From assembly GCF_014897705.1 (NCBI RefSeq), contig NZ_JABUXV010000003.1, positions 186,001 through 250,000 of the forward strand: 64,000 nucleotides of DNA, in the 5' to 3' direction. This DNA comes from Brachybacterium sp. FME24 (lineage in GTDB: Bacteria; Actinomycetota; Actinomycetes; Actinomycetales; Dermabacteraceae). Positions within the stretch are counted from its first letter, which is position 1. Every line of letters starts with the position of its first letter. The notes under the pieces were generated by a model, which saw nothing but the letters and a program-made list of their open reading frames with translations, was not told where the DNA came from and did not search any database. Position numbers and translations under genes: made by a program. This document shows, piece by piece, positions 12,027 through 17,874 of this stretch.

Positions 12027-12203
12027 CCTGATGCTCCTCGCCCGGTCGCAGCGTCTCGTGCTCTGAGCTCACCGTAGGTGAGCACCTGACCGCGCTGCGG
12101 GGGCCGGGGCACGGCTGTGGACGTCGGCACCATGGGGAGGAACGAACGCCGCGGGCTCGTACGATGGGTCAGACCCCGATCCCGCCGGCAGAAGGAGCAC
12201 GAG

Positions 12204-13196
12204 GTGAGCACACCGTCCATCGCTGCTCCGTGGCTCGTCATGACGGCGAAGGAGGCTGCGCGGGCCCGCCAGGAGCATGAAGCGCGCGCCGACGCCCTGA
12301 CCGCCGCACACCGAGAGCGCAAGCAGCGCGGGATGAAGCATCCCGTCGAGGACTTCCTGTTCACCTACTACCCCTTCTCCCCTGCCAAGCTGCGCCGCTG
12401 GCATCCGGGCTGGGAGATCGCCTACGACGCACGCGCCGATCTCGATGTGCATGGACAGCCGTCCATCGCCGACGTCGACACCACCGGGCAGCGCTCCTGG
12501 TACCTCGACGTTCCCGCGGGAACGTCCACCGACCGCGCCGTGACGACGCGACGGGCCGACGTCGAGCGCTACCTGGCCGAGCGGTCCTCGGCCCTTGCCT
12601 TCATGACCCGCCTGCTCTCGGCGTCCTCGCTCAGCAGGCGCCGGCCGCAGTTCGGCTGTTTCGGCCTGCACGAGTGGGCGATGGTGCACCGGCTCGGGGA
12701 GGGACAGCAGCGCCATGAGGACCTGCCGCTGCGCCTCACCCCGACCGAGACCGACCAGGTCGTCGAGCGGGAGAACCTGGTGTGCTCGCACATCGACGCG
12801 TTCCGCTTCTTCACCCCGTCGGCCTCCCCGCTCAATGCCCTGCAGCCCAGCCGCGCCACCCAGGTCGATCTCGACAACCCCGCGTGCCTGCATGTCGGGA
12901 TGGATCTGTACAAGTGGGCCATGAAGCTCACCCCGCTGGTGCCGTCCGCACTCGTCCTGGACTGCTTCGAGCATGCCCGCGAGACCCGGGTGCTGGACAT
13001 GGAGGCGAGTCCGTATGACGTGCGGCCGCTCGGCTACGGCGTCGTGCCGATCGAGACCTCACAGGGCAAGGCCGAGTACGTGCAACGCCAGCGCGTGCTC
13101 GCCGAGCACGCCGACGCGCTGCGCATGCGGGTTCTGGACCATGTCCTCGCGTTCGACGACGCGACTGGCCGTGCCGATCGAGGCCGGCAGCACTGA
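12204..13196 (+). CDS. Actinobacterial protein usually annotated as 3-methyladenine DNA glycosylase
   Basis: 330 residues with the distinctive 'KHPVEDFLFTYYPFSPAKLR' and 'WHPGWEI' block near the N-terminus, 'FGCFGLHEWAMVHRL' in the middle, and 'NPACLHVGMDLYKWAMKLTP' towards the end. Proteins with this layout are commonly labelled 3-methyladenine DNA glycosylase in actinobacteria, but I see no helix-hairpin-helix or other classical glycosylase motif, so a repair role should be treated as tentative. The GTG start 12204 has GAAGGAG upstream; the longer in-frame start at 12117 would add a basic 29-residue tail. Confidence 0.65.
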   Translation: MSTPSIAAPWLVMTAKEAARARQEHEARADALTAAHRERKQRGMKHPVEDFLFTYYPFSPAKLRRWHPGWEIAYDARADLDVHGQPSIADVDTTGQRSWYLDVPAGTSTDRAVTTRRADVERYLAERSSALAFMTRLLSASSLSRRRPQFGCFGLHEWAMVHRLGEGQQRHEDLPLRLTPTETDQVVERENLVCSHIDAFRFFTPSASPLNALQPSRATQVDLDNPACLHVGMDLYKWAMKLTPLVPSALVLDCFEHARETRVLDMEASPYDVRPLGYGVVPIETSQGKAEYVQRQRVLAEHADALRMRVLDHVLAFDDATGRADRGRQH

Positions 13197-13254: not shown

Positions 13255-15822
13255 ATGCCGATCCTGACGCCGTTCCTGCCCGAGAACCACACCGCCGCCG
13301 GTCAGGACGCAGTTGTCGACGGTTTCATGGAGGCCCAGGAATCCGTCGGCCGCACGCTGTACCCGCACCAGGAGGAGGCGCTGCTGGCGATCGCTGCCGG
13401 CGATCACGTCATCGCCGCCACTCCCACCGGCTCGGGCAAGACCACCATCGCGTACTCCGCGCTCTTCGCCGCCATGGCCCGCGGGGAGCGCTCGTACTAC
13501 ACGGCCCCCATCAAGGCGCTGGTCAGCGAGAAGTTCTTCGACCTGGTCGGGCAGTTCGGCGCCGAGAACGTGGGCATGATGACCGGCGACTCCAGCGTGA
13601 ACCACGATGCCCCGATCATCGTGTGCACCGCGGAGATCTTCGCCAACCACGCCCTGCGCGACGGCCCCGGCAGCGACGTCGGCCTCGCGGTCATGGACGA
13701 GTTCCACTATTACGGAGACCCCCAGCGCGGCTGGGCCTGGCAGGTGCCGCTGGTCGAACTGCCCGACTGCCAGTTCGTGCTCATGAGCGCAACCCTCGGC
13801 GACGTGACCAGCCTGGTGACGGACCTCCGGGACCGCACCGAGCGCGACGTGAGCGTGATCGATGACGCCCCGCGCCCCGTGCCGCTCGACTTCCGCTGGT
13901 CGCTCGAACCGCTGCCGGACACGATCGAGACGATCCTGCAGGACCGCGACGCCCCGGTCTACATCGTCCACTTCACCCAGAAGGACGCCCTCGAGCAGGC
14001 ACAGGCCCTGCTCGGGCAGAAGATCCTCACCGGTGAGGAGAAGGAGCGGATCCGCGAGATCATCGGCGACTTCCGCTTCTCCAAGGGCTTCGGGCAGTCC
14101 CTGTCCAAGCTCGTGCGCGACGGCATCGGCGTGCACCACGCGGGGATGCTCCCGAAGTACCGCCGTCTGGTCGAGAAGCTCGCCCAGTCCGGACTGCTGA
14201 AGATCATCTGCGGCACCGACACCCTCGGCGTGGGCATCAACGTACCGATCCGCACTGTGCTGCTGACAGGGCTCGCGAAGTTCGACGGCAAGCGGATGCG
14301 TCTGCTGAACGCTCGGGAGTTCCACCAGATCGCGGGGCGCGCGGGCCGAGCCGGCTTCGACACGATCGGTCACATCGTGGTGCAGGCGCCGACGTGGACC
14401 ATCGACTTCGAGCGCGAACGGGCCAAGCAGCGCCAGCGCGAAGAGGCCGGCAAAGCCCCCAACAGTGCGAAGAAGCGCAAGAAGGAGCCCAAGCCCCGGA
14501 TCCCGGACGGCGCGGTCTCCTGGTCGGAGGCCAACATGACCAAACTGGTCGAGAACGCCCCGGAGCCACTGCGCCCGCATCTGAAGATCACCGCAGGCAT
14601 GGCGATCGCGCTGATCTCCCGCCCCGGGGATGCGATCGCCTCGGGCCGGCACCTCATCATGACCAGCCACCAGACCAGCACCCAGAAGCTCAAGCTGGTG
14701 AGGGACGCGGTTGAGCTCTTCCGGGGCCTGCGGGAAGCCGAGATCATCGAGGTGCTCGAGGCCCCGGACCATCTCGGCCGACGCATCGCCCTGGTCGAGG
14801 ACCTGCAGCTGGACTTCACGATGAACCAGCCGCTGGCGCCGTTCGCGATCGCCATGATCGACTCCCTCGACGAGGATTCCGAGTCCTTGACCTTGGATAC
14901 CGTCTCGATCCTCGAAGCGATCCTGGAGGACCCCAGGCAGGTGCTGATGGCCCAGCAGAACGCAGCCAAGGGGGAGCTGCTCGCCGAGCTGAAGGCCGAC
15001 GGGGTGGAGTACACCGAGCGCATGGCCCTCCTGGACGAGGTCGGCTGGCCCAAGCCGCTGGCCGAGGATCTCGAGGCCGCATTGGAGATCTATGCGAAGA
15101 CCCGACCCTGGGTGCGCATCGAGGACCTCTCCCCCAAATCCGTCGTCCGCGAGATGTACGAGACCGGTCAGACCTTCAGCGAGTTCGTCCAGCGCTACGG
15201 ACTGCAGCGCTCCGAGGGCATCGTGCTGCGGTATCTCTCCGCCGCGTACCAGGCGATGCGCCGCACCCTTCCCCAGGACCTGCGCACCGAGGCTCTCGAG
15301 GATCTCATCGAGTGGCTCGGAGTACTGGTGCGCGGCATCGATTCCTCTCTGCTGGATGAGTGGGAGGCCCTGTCCCACCCGGAGGACGGCGATCCTGCTT
15401 CCGGGGATGTCGCCAGCGACCTGCGCCCCACGACGCCCCGCGGACTGTCCGCCCAGACCAAGGTGCTGCGCACCATGGTGCGGGCCTCGCTGTGGCAGCG
15501 GGTCGAGCATTTCGCCTTCGAACGCGAGGGACGACTCGGGGAACTCGACGCCGGATCGGGCTGGGACCGTCCTCGCTGGGCGGAAGCCATGGACGCGTAC
15601 TACGACACCTACGACCACGTCGGCATCGACGGCCCGGCCCGCTCACCACAGCTGTTGCAGATCACCGAGGAGTCGAAACTCTGGCGGATCCGGCAGGTGC
15701 TGGACGATCCTGACCGCAACCACGACTGGGCGATCGAGGCGGAGCTCGACCTCGAGGCGACCGACGAGGCCGGTGAACCCGTGCTCACGATCACCCATGT
15801 CGGAGACATCGCCGACCGCTGA
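13255..15822 (+). CDS. DEAD/DEAH-box helicase with DUF3516 C-terminus
   Basis: 855-aa superfamily 2 (Ski2-like) helicase. Walker A 'ATPTGSGKTT' (residues 55-64), motif II 'MDEFH', motif III 'LMSATLGD', and motif VI 'QIAGRAGRAGFD' are all present, with a Lys-rich linker 'KKRKKEPKPR' after the helicase core and a long C-terminal DUF3516 region. Family members are conserved in actinobacteria and probably unwind RNA or structured nucleic acids; the target is unknown. It lies 58 bases downstream of the glycosylase-like gene. Confidence 0.88.
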   Translation: MPILTPFLPENHTAAGQDAVVDGFMEAQESVGRTLYPHQEEALLAIAAGDHVIAATPTGSGKTTIAYSALFAAMARGERSYYTAPIKALVSEKFFDLVGQFGAENVGMMTGDSSVNHDAPIIVCTAEIFANHALRDGPGSDVGLAVMDEFHYYGDPQRGWAWQVPLVELPDCQFVLMSATLGDVTSLVTDLRDRTERDVSVIDDAPRPVPLDFRWSLEPLPDTIETILQDRDAPVYIVHFTQKDALEQAQALLGQKILTGEEKERIREIIGDFRFSKGFGQSLSKLVRDGIGVHHAGMLPKYRRLVEKLAQSGLLKIICGTDTLGVGINVPIRTVLLTGLAKFDGKRMRLLNAREFHQIAGRAGRAGFDTIGHIVVQAPTWTIDFERERAKQRQREEAGKAPNSAKKRKKEPKPRIPDGAVSWSEANMTKLVENAPEPLRPHLKITAGMAIALISRPGDAIASGRHLIMTSHQTSTQKLKLVRDAVELFRGLREAEIIEVLEAPDHLGRRIALVEDLQLDFTMNQPLAPFAIAMIDSLDEDSESLTLDTVSILEAILEDPRQVLMAQQNAAKGELLAELKADGVEYTERMALLDEVGWPKPLAEDLEAALEIYAKTRPWVRIEDLSPKSVVREMYETGQTFSEFVQRYGLQRSEGIVLRYLSAAYQAMRRTLPQDLRTEALEDLIEWLGVLVRGIDSSLLDEWEALSHPEDGDPASGDVASDLRPTTPRGLSAQTKVLRTMVRASLWQRVEHFAFEREGRLGELDAGSGWDRPRWAEAMDAYYDTYDHVGIDGPARSPQLLQITEESKLWRIRQVLDDPDRNHDWAIEAELDLEATDEAGEPVLTITHVGDIADR

Positions 15823-15838
15823 GATGCCCTTCACGCGC

Positions 15839-15872
15839 CACAGGCCGGCACCCTCTCGGGCACCGGCCTGTG
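15839..15872. terminator. Hairpin between convergent helicase and repeat-peptide genes
   Basis: CACAGGCCGG/CCGGCCTGTG, a perfect 10-bp stem extended by three more pairs after a 2-base mismatch, 16 bases past the helicase stop and 43 bases past the repeat-peptide stop. It could end transcription from both sides. No strong T-run. Confidence 0.55.
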
Positions 15873-15915
15873 TCACTGTGAGCTGCTCGGGCGGCCGTGG
15901 AGCGCCGCCGCGCAA

Positions 15916-16305
15916 CTAGTACCGCGGGTTGACCTCGACCTGCGGATTGACCTCGACCCACTGCGGGTTGACCTCGACCTGCGGATTGACCTCGACCCAC
16001 TGCGGGTTGACCTCGACCTGCGGGTTGACCTCGACCCGCTGCGGGTTGACCTCGACCTGCGGATTGACCTCGACCCACTGCGGGTTGACCTCGACCTGCG
16101 GATTGACCTCGACCCACTGCGGGTTGACCTCGACCTGCGGGTTGACCTCGACCCGCTGCGGATTCACCTCGACTGCTGAAGCGAAGCCCGCACCTGCGAG
16201 AGTCAGCCCCGCAGCAAGAGCGGCGCCGCCGACGACGCGGGCGCCTCGGCTCATCCAGGACATGGCGGGGGAACGGACGGACTGCATGTGGCTCTTCTGA
16301 GTCAT
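15916..16305 (-). CDS. Secreted VEVNPQ tandem-repeat peptide
   Basis: 129-aa product (an alternative GTG start one codon upstream at 16308). Residues 1-44 are a long Sec-type signal peptide: basic start, 'MSRGARVVGGAALAAGLTL', then AGAGFASA before the mature chain. The remaining 85 residues are 13 back-to-back units alternating VEVNPQ and VEVNPQ plus one aromatic or basic residue (R, W, W, R, W, W), ending VEVNPRY. No Cys, Gly, membrane anchor, LPXTG or known domain; net charge about -10. Signal peptide, leader and repeat motif resemble the neighbouring protease gene (16434-17459). Function unknown: possible protease substrate, inhibitor, pro-peptide or surface peptide. AAAGG precedes the start. 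Confidence 0.72.
   Translation of the reverse strand: MTQKSHMQSVRSPAMSWMSRGARVVGGAALAAGLTLAGAGFASAVEVNPQRVEVNPQVEVNPQWVEVNPQVEVNPQWVEVNPQVEVNPQRVEVNPQVEVNPQWVEVNPQVEVNPQWVEVNPQVEVNPRY
15919..16173 (-). repeat. 13-unit VEVNP(Q) coding tandem repeat with 117-bp higher-order repeat
   Basis: 85 codons of alternating 18- and 21-bp units. Units 8-13 (15919-16035) repeat units 2-7 (16036-16152) in unit type, R/W pattern and almost all Asn codon choices (AAC versus AAT), so a 117-bp block was duplicated after the basic unit had expanded. Unit 1 (16153-16173) differs most, with GTG AAT where others use GTC AAC or GTC AAT. The final unit lacks the Gln codon and ends in Arg-Tyr. Confidence 0.95.
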
Positions 16306-16377
16306 CACGGGTCACCTTTCAGGAGACTGGCGTCGGGACCAGCACGGACAAGTCCGACAATACGCAATGTTACCCGC

Positions 16378-16387
16378 TTCACACCAG
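16378..16387 (-). promoter_or_regulatory. CTGGTGTGAA box upstream of repeat-peptide gene
   Basis: Minus-strand CTGGTGTGAA about 75-82 bases upstream of the start, identical to a box at the same distance from the protease start (17533-17542). A TATTGT hexamer follows 16 bases after the GTGTGA part, so it may hold a -35-like element or activator site. Confidence 0.45.
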
Positions 16388-16433
16388 GGGGCGCCATCGC
16401 CTGTCCTTCCTGCACATCACGCAGCAGAACGGC

Positions 16434-17459
16434 TCACGCGGCGGAGGCCGCCTCGTAGACCTCTTCGGCGACGTCACCGAGGTACGGGCCGTACATGACG
16501 TTCGGCTGCGAGGTGTATCCGAAGCTGTTCACCGAGACCTGGTACCCCTCGGGGCCGTCCCCGACGAACCATGGGCCGCCGGACGACCCCCCGGTCATAT
16601 CGCAGTCGATCCCCTGGTCATCGGTGCCACCCAGGGTGTCATCGAAGCCGGTGCCCTGGCACTGCTCGAGAGTCTCGCCGTCGAACGGTGCGGCGGCCGG
16701 GTAGCCGAAGGACGTGTACAGCGCCCCGCGGTCGGTATTGAACTCGATCCCGGAACCGCCCACCGTGTCGGTGAGCGTCGCGGTTCCGCTCTCGGGCTCG
16801 ACGGTCGCGAAGGCGATGTCGTAGTTCATGTCCTCCTGGCCGACCCATTGGTCAGTGGCGAAGAGATCAGAGGCGCTCCACAGACCGTATGGGGCCTGTC
16901 CGTTGTCGTATCCCGGGGCGAACACCCAGTTGCTGGCCCAGGTGCCGGCCTCGTTCACGCAGTGACCTGCCGTCGAGACGGTCGAGCCGTTCCCGGAGGC
17001 GACCGCGTTGCCGGAGCACACGTAGTCGGCGCCGTTCACCGTGAAGAACACCTTGCCGACGTGATCGGTGCCGGCGGCAGCGGCGGTCCGGGACCCGTCG
17101 TGGGTACCGGGCGCGGCCTGTGGGGAGGCGTCCGCCTGGGGGTTCACCTCGACGGCCGGAATCTTCACGGAGTCGGAGGCCTCGACCTGACCATCCGGCG
17201 CCTCGTTCTCGGCGATGAGCTCGTCGGCCGGGGTCGCGGACTCCATGCGCTCCGCGGTCCAGTACTCGACGGCGTCACCTTGTGAGGACTCTGAAAGCGT
17301 CGTGGCCTCGAGATCGTTGTCGCTCGGGTCGGCCGTGGCGAGGCCGGCACCGCCGAAGGTCAGGGCTGCCGCGAAGGCGACGCCGCCTGCCGCCCTGGCG
17401 CCGCGGCCGAGGCGGGAGAGGAAGGGGGTGCAATCATCCTGGGGATCTGGGGAGTGCAT
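16434..17459 (-). CDS. Secreted trypsin/V8-like serine protease with VEVNPQ in pro-region
   Basis: 341-aa secreted S1-family peptidase. Signal peptide to about residue 43 ('LGRGARAAGGVAFAAALTF'), an acidic pro-region (44-130), then the protease domain: catalytic His166 in 'STAGHC', Asp214 in 'NYDIAF', Ser293 in 'GGSSGGP', and likely disulfides Cys148-Cys167 and Cys267-Cys286. The layout is like glutamyl-endopeptidase (V8-like) enzymes, but cleavage preference cannot be read. Residues 103-108 of the pro-region are VEVNPQ, the unit of the adjacent repeat peptide. ATG 17459 is chosen because its GAAAGG...GTGATG context matches that gene; an upstream start at 17537 lacks support. Confidence 0.85.
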   Translation of the reverse strand: MHSPDPQDDCTPFLSRLGRGARAAGGVAFAAALTFGGAGLATADPSDNDLEATTLSESSQGDAVEYWTAERMESATPADELIAENEAPDGQVEASDSVKIPAVEVNPQADASPQAAPGTHDGSRTAAAAGTDHVGKVFFTVNGADYVCSGNAVASGNGSTVSTAGHCVNEAGTWASNWVFAPGYDNGQAPYGLWSASDLFATDQWVGQEDMNYDIAFATVEPESGTATLTDTVGGSGIEFNTDRGALYTSFGYPAAAPFDGETLEQCQGTGFDDTLGGTDDQGIDCDMTGGSSGGPWFVGDGPEGYQVSVNSFGYTSQPNVMYGPYLGDVAEEVYEAASAA

Positions 17460-17532
17460 CACTGGGGGATCCTTTCGGGGGAACGGGCGCGGTCTGAGGA
17501 ACCGCGGTGCCACGCTATGCGACGTGATGCCG

Positions 17533-17542
17533 TTCACACCAG
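17533..17542 (-). promoter_or_regulatory. CTGGTGTGAA box upstream of protease gene
   Basis: Same 10-mer as at 16378-16387, 83 bases from the protease ATG to its far end (82 in the repeat-peptide gene). Followed by CATAGC where the other gene has TATTGT. Confidence 0.45.
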
Positions 17543-17559
17543 AGGTTCGACGCGATCAA

Positions 17560-17575
17560 GTGACCCAAGGGTCAC
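17560..17575. promoter_or_regulatory. Palindrome GTGACCC-AA-GGGTCAC upstream of protease
   Basis: Perfect 7-bp inverted repeat with a 2-base centre, about 100 bases upstream of the protease start and 41 bases past the stop of the 85-aa gene. A single GGGTCAC half-site also lies just before the repeat-peptide start. Candidate regulator site. Confidence 0.45.
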
Positions 17576-17616
17576 CATCTGCCGCGGCGACCGACTGCCA
17601 CCCTTCGCCCTCTCCG

Positions 17617-17874
17617 CTAGTCGTCGCGCTCTGCAGCCTGCACCCCGTCAACGCAGGTCGCTCCACCCTTCGTCACTCCGAGTCCCGACTCCCCCGGCTC
17701 CTGCGACTCCGCCTCGTCTCCGTGCGCCGCACCGGGTGAATCCGCCGAAAGCTCTCTCTCGAAAGGGGCGGGCCGTGCGGCGTGTCGCCGCTGCGCGGTC
17801 CAATAGGCGGCAGCGGACCCGACACCGTCGGACAGTTCGCGGGCGGCGGGATCCTCCGAGCGTCGTGCAGTCAT
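17617..17874 (-). CDS. Small hypothetical protein (85 aa)
   Basis: An 86-codon frame opens at ATG 17874, 11 bases after the phosphatase stop, with GAGGAG at good spacing. It begins MTARRSEDPAARELSDGVGS, then 'AAYWTAQRRHAARPAPFERE', and ends in an acidic tail with one Cys. No family recognised. Position and ribosome-binding site support translation coupled to the phosphatase; composition is otherwise unremarkable, so it could be spurious. Confidence 0.5.
   Translation of the reverse strand: MTARRSEDPAARELSDGVGSAAAYWTAQRRHAARPAPFERELSADSPGAAHGDEAESQEPGESGLGVTKGGATCVDGVQAAERDD

Follow-up and report, generated by a model that had tools for sequence, protein, structure and literature searches.

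The stretch of DNA analysed here, referred to as the window, comprises 64,000 nucleotides of Brachybacterium sp. FME24 (contig NZ_JABUXV010000003.1, positions 186,001 to 250,000). It contains a gene for a small repeat peptide on the minus strand (15916-16305), which runs from an ATG at 16305 to a stop codon at 15916-15918. A GTG at 16308 is an alternative start (ORF 15916-16308, minus), and the ATG was judged to be better. The predicted signal peptide comprises residues 1-44 and ends with ASA (16174-16305, minus). It is followed by a mature chain of 85 residues (15919-16173, minus), which is composed of 12 VEVNPQ units, one VEVNPR unit, the residues R, W, W, R, W, W and a final Y, so that units of 6 and 7 residues alternate in G000. 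The initial annotation, which gave no strand, had described a signal peptide and a secreted chain of 13 VEVNP(Q) units with regularly placed R, W, W, R, W, W, a C-terminal Y and no cysteines, and all of this was found in the minus-strand translation. On the DNA level, Tandem Repeats Finder reported a period of 39 bp with 6.4 copies and 96% matches (15924-16173). Two further open frames lie over the same DNA (15929-16300, plus; 15791-16315, minus), and the minus frame 15916-16305 was preferred because of its codon statistics; the plus strand, read in frame across 15916-16305, contains an internal stop. When the genome was searched with its own repeat peptide, all five matches at E <= 10 fell at this gene. 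A ribosome-binding site, GAAAGG, is present at 16315-16320 (minus) and is conserved across the orthologues.

Family members were searched for in 38 Brachybacterium genomes. Matches at E <= 0.1 were obtained in 23 genomes, and 19 were accepted after inspection of the frames; the matches of the four dropped genomes (G016, G018, G020, G023) were weak and fell on other proteins, in the case of G020 on the signal peptide of the protease described below. In all 19 carriers (18 loci and the window) the gene is at the same site and directly adjoins the 3′-end of a convergent gene for a DUF3516/DEAD helicase (13255-15822, plus), which is a conserved landmark of the locus. The orthologues at the same site in 19 of 38 genomes, the conserved ribosome-binding site, the third-position bias and pN < pS (see below) are beyond chance, and thus the ORF is a real gene. 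A helicase tree of 37 genomes, which left out G029 because it had no helicase match, placed the 19 carriers within one well-supported clade of 22. Absence or breakage of the frame in close relatives had initially been named as evidence against the gene; this was not the case within the clade, though half of the 38 genomes lack the gene, including three clade members (G002, G015, G016). The distribution requires four changes on the helicase tree, consistent with a single gain and losses in three lineages. The array of G028 is not in frame with its start codon, and the G028 protease was also matched in two pieces, so that a sequencing error is possible.

The 1500 bases past the helicase gene were inspected for remnants in five genomes that lack the gene (G002, G015, G016, G020, G033), and neither an array nor a promoter-like site was found. 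The best match, in G002, had an E value of 0.001 over 34 residues and did not include an array; the other four had E values of 0.14 or worse. Eighteen gene-lacking loci, of which G005 and G020 overlap other loci of the set, were also scanned with looser criteria for minus-strand frames that resemble a signal peptide, and no candidate was accepted. Searches of the family (47 genomes), the order (396), the class (394, with a typed 36-residue chain as query), the phylum (396) and viral contigs revealed no family member outside of the genus; the order search scored 13 first-look candidates per genome and the family search up to 112, and weak relatives could thus have been missed. Apart from subtilases and low-complexity frames, the matches comprised a WYL-type protein, recognised by eye, and a few further proteins.

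The units are nearly uniform within a species and differ between species (VEVNPQ, VEINPQ, VQINPQ, IETNPL/Q, VEVNPW, IQGNPQ), with a mean identity of 0.96 within genomes and 0.72 between genomes. On the helicase tree, VEINPQ and VQINPQ cluster in one clade of five (G010, G030, G003, G031, G037), VEVNPW occurs in one clade of three (G014, G027, G028) and separately in G001, IETNP in one clade of two (G004, G026), and VEVNPQ on several branches. The linkers between the units have a length of 0-7 residues (12 in G003, when the degenerate EQISPQ is left out of the units). The first unit follows immediately after the AxA motif in 18 of the 19 family members, and the chain ends exactly with NPQ, NPW or NPL in 14.

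Pairwise comparison of units from the same genome revealed 460 synonymous versus 92 non-synonymous codon differences in the 19 genomes, and 26, 82 and 484 base differences at codon positions 1, 2 and 3, i.e., 484 of 592 were at position 3; these pair counts are not independent events, and the pattern by which units were counted requires P at position 5 and one of N, T or S at position 4, so that degenerate units are omitted. In 10 of the 19 genomes all counted units were identical on the protein level, yet they had 3-5 DNA variants. For the signal peptide plus the first unit, pN was smaller than pS in 136 of 136 pairs from 17 species (G028 and G036 were left out). At the codon level it could be shown that selection keeps the units alike in each species; homogenisation of the array by recombination is an alternative source of their likeness.

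The peptide had been proposed to fit no known family, and database searches bore this out. In Pfam scans of the 19 members no fitting family was found; Lysostaphin_N matched one member, Hexapep matched three, and other single matches were at chance level. NCBIfam, scanned with four members, gave only matches far below the cut-offs, a PDB search yielded two chains of the proteasome subunit RPN2 (E about 0.008), which were taken as chance, and PADLOC had no match for the repeat protein of the window. In the full-text literature the letter string VEVNP occurred in three papers, which are unrelated to judge by title and abstract, longer motifs were absent, and phrase searches found no description of a repeat-peptide family. 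The lysostaphin N-terminal pro-domain has 13-residue repeats, and Lysostaphin_N (PF25533), which matched with an HMM E value of 4.9e-4, resembles the peptide in being a secreted chain with tandem repeats. In contrast, the score was 20.6 bits against a cut-off of 60, only one of 19 members matched at E <= 0.1, and no peptidase domain follows the repeats. Chaplins and rodlins are likewise small secreted actinobacterial proteins, but the repeat gene encodes tandem NP hexapeptides and neither family was matched in the Pfam scans, in agreement with the earlier statement that the peptide is unlike both. Two AlphaFold2 models, built from 19 and 13 sequences, contained no fold apart from the signal helix (mean pLDDT 47.6 and 51.0), and the varied linker lengths argue against one fixed fold. 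The initial reading of a repeat peptide that is secreted, as judged from its signal peptide, and belongs to no known family therefore stood, and it could be extended to a conserved peptide with a unit under selection. The roles suggested along with it, namely a protease substrate, an inhibitor, an adhesive or a bioactive peptide released by cleavage, are candidates.

The next gene upstream of the repeat gene (16434-17462, minus) encodes a secreted trypsin-like (S1) serine protease with a signal peptide, which was matched by the PDB entries 3wy8 (E 5.7e-71) and 3cp7 (E 1.8e-65) and, just below the cut-offs, by Pfam Trypsin_2 and Trypsin. Its start codon is likely GTG 17462 or ATG 17459, because the start of the longest ORF (17537) falls inside the operator described below. 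Homologues (E <= 1e-10) are present in 22 of the 38 genomes, also outside of the repeat-gene clade. The protease gene adjoins the repeat gene, or sits across the helicase gene, in 14 of the 19 carriers. Both genes occur in 14 genomes, neither in 11, only the repeat gene in five and only the protease gene in eight, and a strict coupling of the two was therefore rejected. At the G031 locus (L056), the N-terminus of the protease homologue looks degraded by eye, and the repeat gene is intact.

Both genes carry a GTGA-N6-TCAC motif six bases before a TAnnnT -10 box. The repeat-gene site (GTGA-N6-TAAC-N6-TATTGT, 16357-16382, minus) agrees with the consensus at 10 of 11 positions and the protease site (GTGAACGGCATCACGTCGCATAGCGT, 17512-17537, minus) at all 11. 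Twelve of the 19 repeat promoters scored at least 10 and 13 at least 9, while none of 3800 shuffles of these promoters reached 10 and 0.6% reached 9. The repeat promoters of G009, G010, G021, G024, G025 and G036 scored 7-8, which is at or near the shuffle level. From the 22 genomes with a protease, 18 protease promoters were tested, and all scored at least 10; shuffles were made for the repeat promoters only. The exact operator pattern has 23 sites in the 38 whole genomes, namely before four repeat genes, before 12 protease genes and seven elsewhere; the pattern was derived from these same promoters and recovers them partly by construction, so that the informative result is the scarcity of other sites. 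A reversed control pattern had two matches. In several species (e.g., L037-L041) a second palindrome of the type GTGACC-(N)-GGTCAC was noticed by eye, tens of bases upstream of the protease operator.

For five of the seven sites elsewhere a downstream gene was found and named by eye from its translation. A DUF485/acetate-permease operon follows the operator-promoter pattern in G000 (C63:75018-75043, L167) and in G020. The G020 sites at C1:360027 (L194) and C1:2788319 (L202) are among those that lie before the DUF485/acetate-permease operon or a sugar-ABC-type ATPase gene, and the remaining named genes are amino-acid-permease-like and glutathione-peroxidase-like. The operator would cover the -35 region and the spacer of the promoter, a position that is more usual for repression. 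The best sites are close to TGTGA-N6-TCACA, a likeness that six of the 19 repeat promoters lack. Judged from the motif and the downstream genes, the operator suits a putative CRP/GlxR-type regulator. For Corynebacterium glutamicum GlxR, PMC4254451 gives the consensus TGTGANNTANNTCACA and describes mostly activation. Proteins with a CRP-type HTH were present in four of four genomes searched, and equally in 14 of 14 control genomes. A scan of 15780-17700 for consensus promoters and terminators found none. RNA structure in the 5′-leader was dropped as a candidate: small hairpins seemed visible by eye, but RNAalifold predicted no pair from 19 sequences, and a search of the leader against Rfam gave only sub-threshold miRNA matches.

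The repeat gene and the protease gene share more than the promoter type. Within the genus, the non-family matches of the family profile (E <= 1e-4; up to 112 candidates scored per genome) were the protease signal peptide, in 12 genomes; the one match beyond these came from another genus (G044) and belongs to a different protein. A signal-peptide profile built from 17 members was compared with 5243 frames from the window and from the collected loci, some of which overlap, and it found the repeat family and the protease. One other frame, in L082 (E 4.7e-6), coincides in part with the start of the G017 protease match and might represent the signal peptide of that protease read in a different frame. 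Three additional frames had E values of 0.024 to 0.6. Alignment of 20 protease pro-regions revealed a single VEVNPQ in G000 (17136-17153, minus) and a single VEVDPQ in G024, as well as the looser forms VAADPQ in G009 and AEASPQ in G001; in the other 16 no motif following the unit was seen by eye. Co-evolution of unit and pro-region was rejected for this reason, and the motif was kept as a hint that the unit may derive from it. Because the signal peptides are related and two pro-regions contain VEVNPQ or VEVDPQ, the repeat gene probably grew from a duplicated 5′-end of the protease gene.

The best explanation, to which we assign a probability of about 40%, is that the repeat protein would be a secreted, disordered precursor that holds one short peptide in many copies. 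The arrangement of the units, which start at the signal-peptide cut, mostly end the chain and are joined by variable linkers, resembles that of such a precursor. Also in favour are the likeness of the units within a genome despite their varied DNA, the clustering of unit types on the helicase tree, the lack of a predicted fold and the promoter type in common with the protease. Signal peptidase would cut after AxA, and extracellular proteases, perhaps including the co-regulated S1 protease, would cut between the units and release several copies of hexa- or heptapeptides (here VEVNPQ, VEVNPQR and VEVNPQW). Either extracellularly or once taken up, the released peptide might serve as a signal or effector typed by species, and a CRP/GlxR-type regulator at the shared operator could tie its production to the nutrient state. 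Such a gene may have originated by duplication of the protease promoter and signal peptide and amplification of the pro-region motif (PAVEVNPQ). Against this reading, no protease that cuts at Q|V, W|V or L|I could be identified, five of the 19 carriers have no protease match and the G031 protease looks degraded, and an intact multivalent chain explains the conservation of the units equally.

Such an intact chain, disordered and extracellular, with hexapeptide copies that repeatedly bind one partner (cell wall, surface protein or polysaccharide) and are not cleaved, is the main rival; it fits nearly as well as the precursor and must be taken seriously, if tentatively. The unit identity under selection, the variable linkers, the missing fold and the copy number of 3 to 13 are what would be expected, and several species have an acidic chain, with a net charge of -10 in G000. 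However, the copies go down to 3-4 in G014 and G001, with mature chains of 32 and 28 residues, the unit charge is not conserved across species (VQINPQ, IQGNPQ), and Pfam scans revealed no known wall-binding domain. The units might also copy the pro-region stretch and serve as a competing substrate or inhibitor of the co-regulated protease. The common promoter type, the related signal peptide and the pro-region motifs of G000 and G024 would fit, but in the VEVNPW species G014, G027 and G028 the motif of the pro-region does not track the unit, and this role appears unlikely; a dedicated inhibitor of the S1 protease is disfavoured because five of the 19 carriers lack a protease match at E <= 1e-10.

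Two further explanations are much less probable. The units might stack as in the left-handed beta-helix of acyltransferases, in which three hexads form one coil. The bacterial transferase hexapeptide repeat (PF00132) has the same six-residue period and its matches (E <= 0.1) reached 6.5e-6, G037 had LpxD/LpxA-type NCBIfam matches far below the cut-offs, and the mature length is a multiple of six in 11 of the 19 members. In contrast, matches were confined to three of 19 members, the alternation of units in G000 and the linkers of most species break the period, and several arrays do not fill whole coils. Neither uninterrupted hexads nor strand coils were found, the two low-confidence models having no strand, which does not in itself exclude the fold; altogether, a beta-helix seems very improbable. 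Hardly credible is a functionless by-product, i.e., a duplicated protease 5′-end running into a simple repeat. The related 5′-ends and the lack of the gene in half of the 38 genomes, among them three members of the clade, would agree with it, but it is already contradicted by the selection data, namely the strong synonymous bias and pN < pS in all pairs, and it does not account for the conserved promoter and ribosome-binding site.

For the precursor reading, two known systems offer parallels. Fungal alpha-factor-type pheromone precursors are secreted chains with many copies of one peptide and defined cleavage sites in the spacers; they are eukaryotic, and the repeat gene, unlike them, has no constant spacer. 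The tandem Phr pro-pheromones of RRNPPA quorum sensing in Bacillota are also exported precursors with a signal peptide and a repeated short peptide. According to PMC11343458, duplicated Phr precursors have identical or nearly identical hexapeptides, one of them C-terminal, that are cut by extracellular proteases, and 1-4 repeats are given, with up to eight copies reported. In contrast, Brachybacterium belongs to a different phylum, its peptide has no evident sequence relationship to Phr, and cleavage of its chain is predicted. Among six neighbouring proteins of the window (the protease, the DUF3516 helicase, a histidine phosphatase, an ACT protein, a luciferase-like protein and the product of ORF 12117-13196, which has no family), no TPR-type RRNPPA receptor was found with Pfam. 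It is tempting to speculate, though doubtful, that a new actinobacterial peptide-signal precursor might have arisen from a duplicated protease promoter and signal peptide and an amplified pro-region hexapeptide, under one CRP/GlxR-like operator and with units that change array-wide as species diverge. New in this study are the genus-wide family, its species-specific units, the promoter type shared with a secreted protease and the probable descent from the protease 5′-end. In view of its probable descent, the gene offers a compact case for testing how a protease gene can give rise to a gene for a secreted multi-copy peptide, and the genus includes named isolates, e.g., B. alimentarium. Should the units prove to be released, Actinomycetes would have a precursor of multi-copy peptides whose units are typed by species and which comes with a linked protease to test.

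Several other repeats were encountered during the searches. An unrelated frame of a distant phylum member (L154) contains a long NP repeat, (AAATNP)n, and a likewise unrelated protein that by eye resembles a WYL-type regulator contains a (PEVETN)n repeat (L141). In other Micrococcales (L185, 5448-9354; L187, 5193-9356), the S8 domain of subtilases without an evident signal peptide is immediately preceded by tandem repeats of the form (P-L/F-IETN)n or (PFMKTN)n. A CHAT-domain gene, with a sub-cut-off TPR match in L185, directly follows these subtilase genes. The loci are candidates for a pair of CHAT protease and subtilase, and the repeats could be a linker for activation cleavage; a similar unit, IETNPL, is found in Brachybacterium G026, and convergence may account for the likeness.
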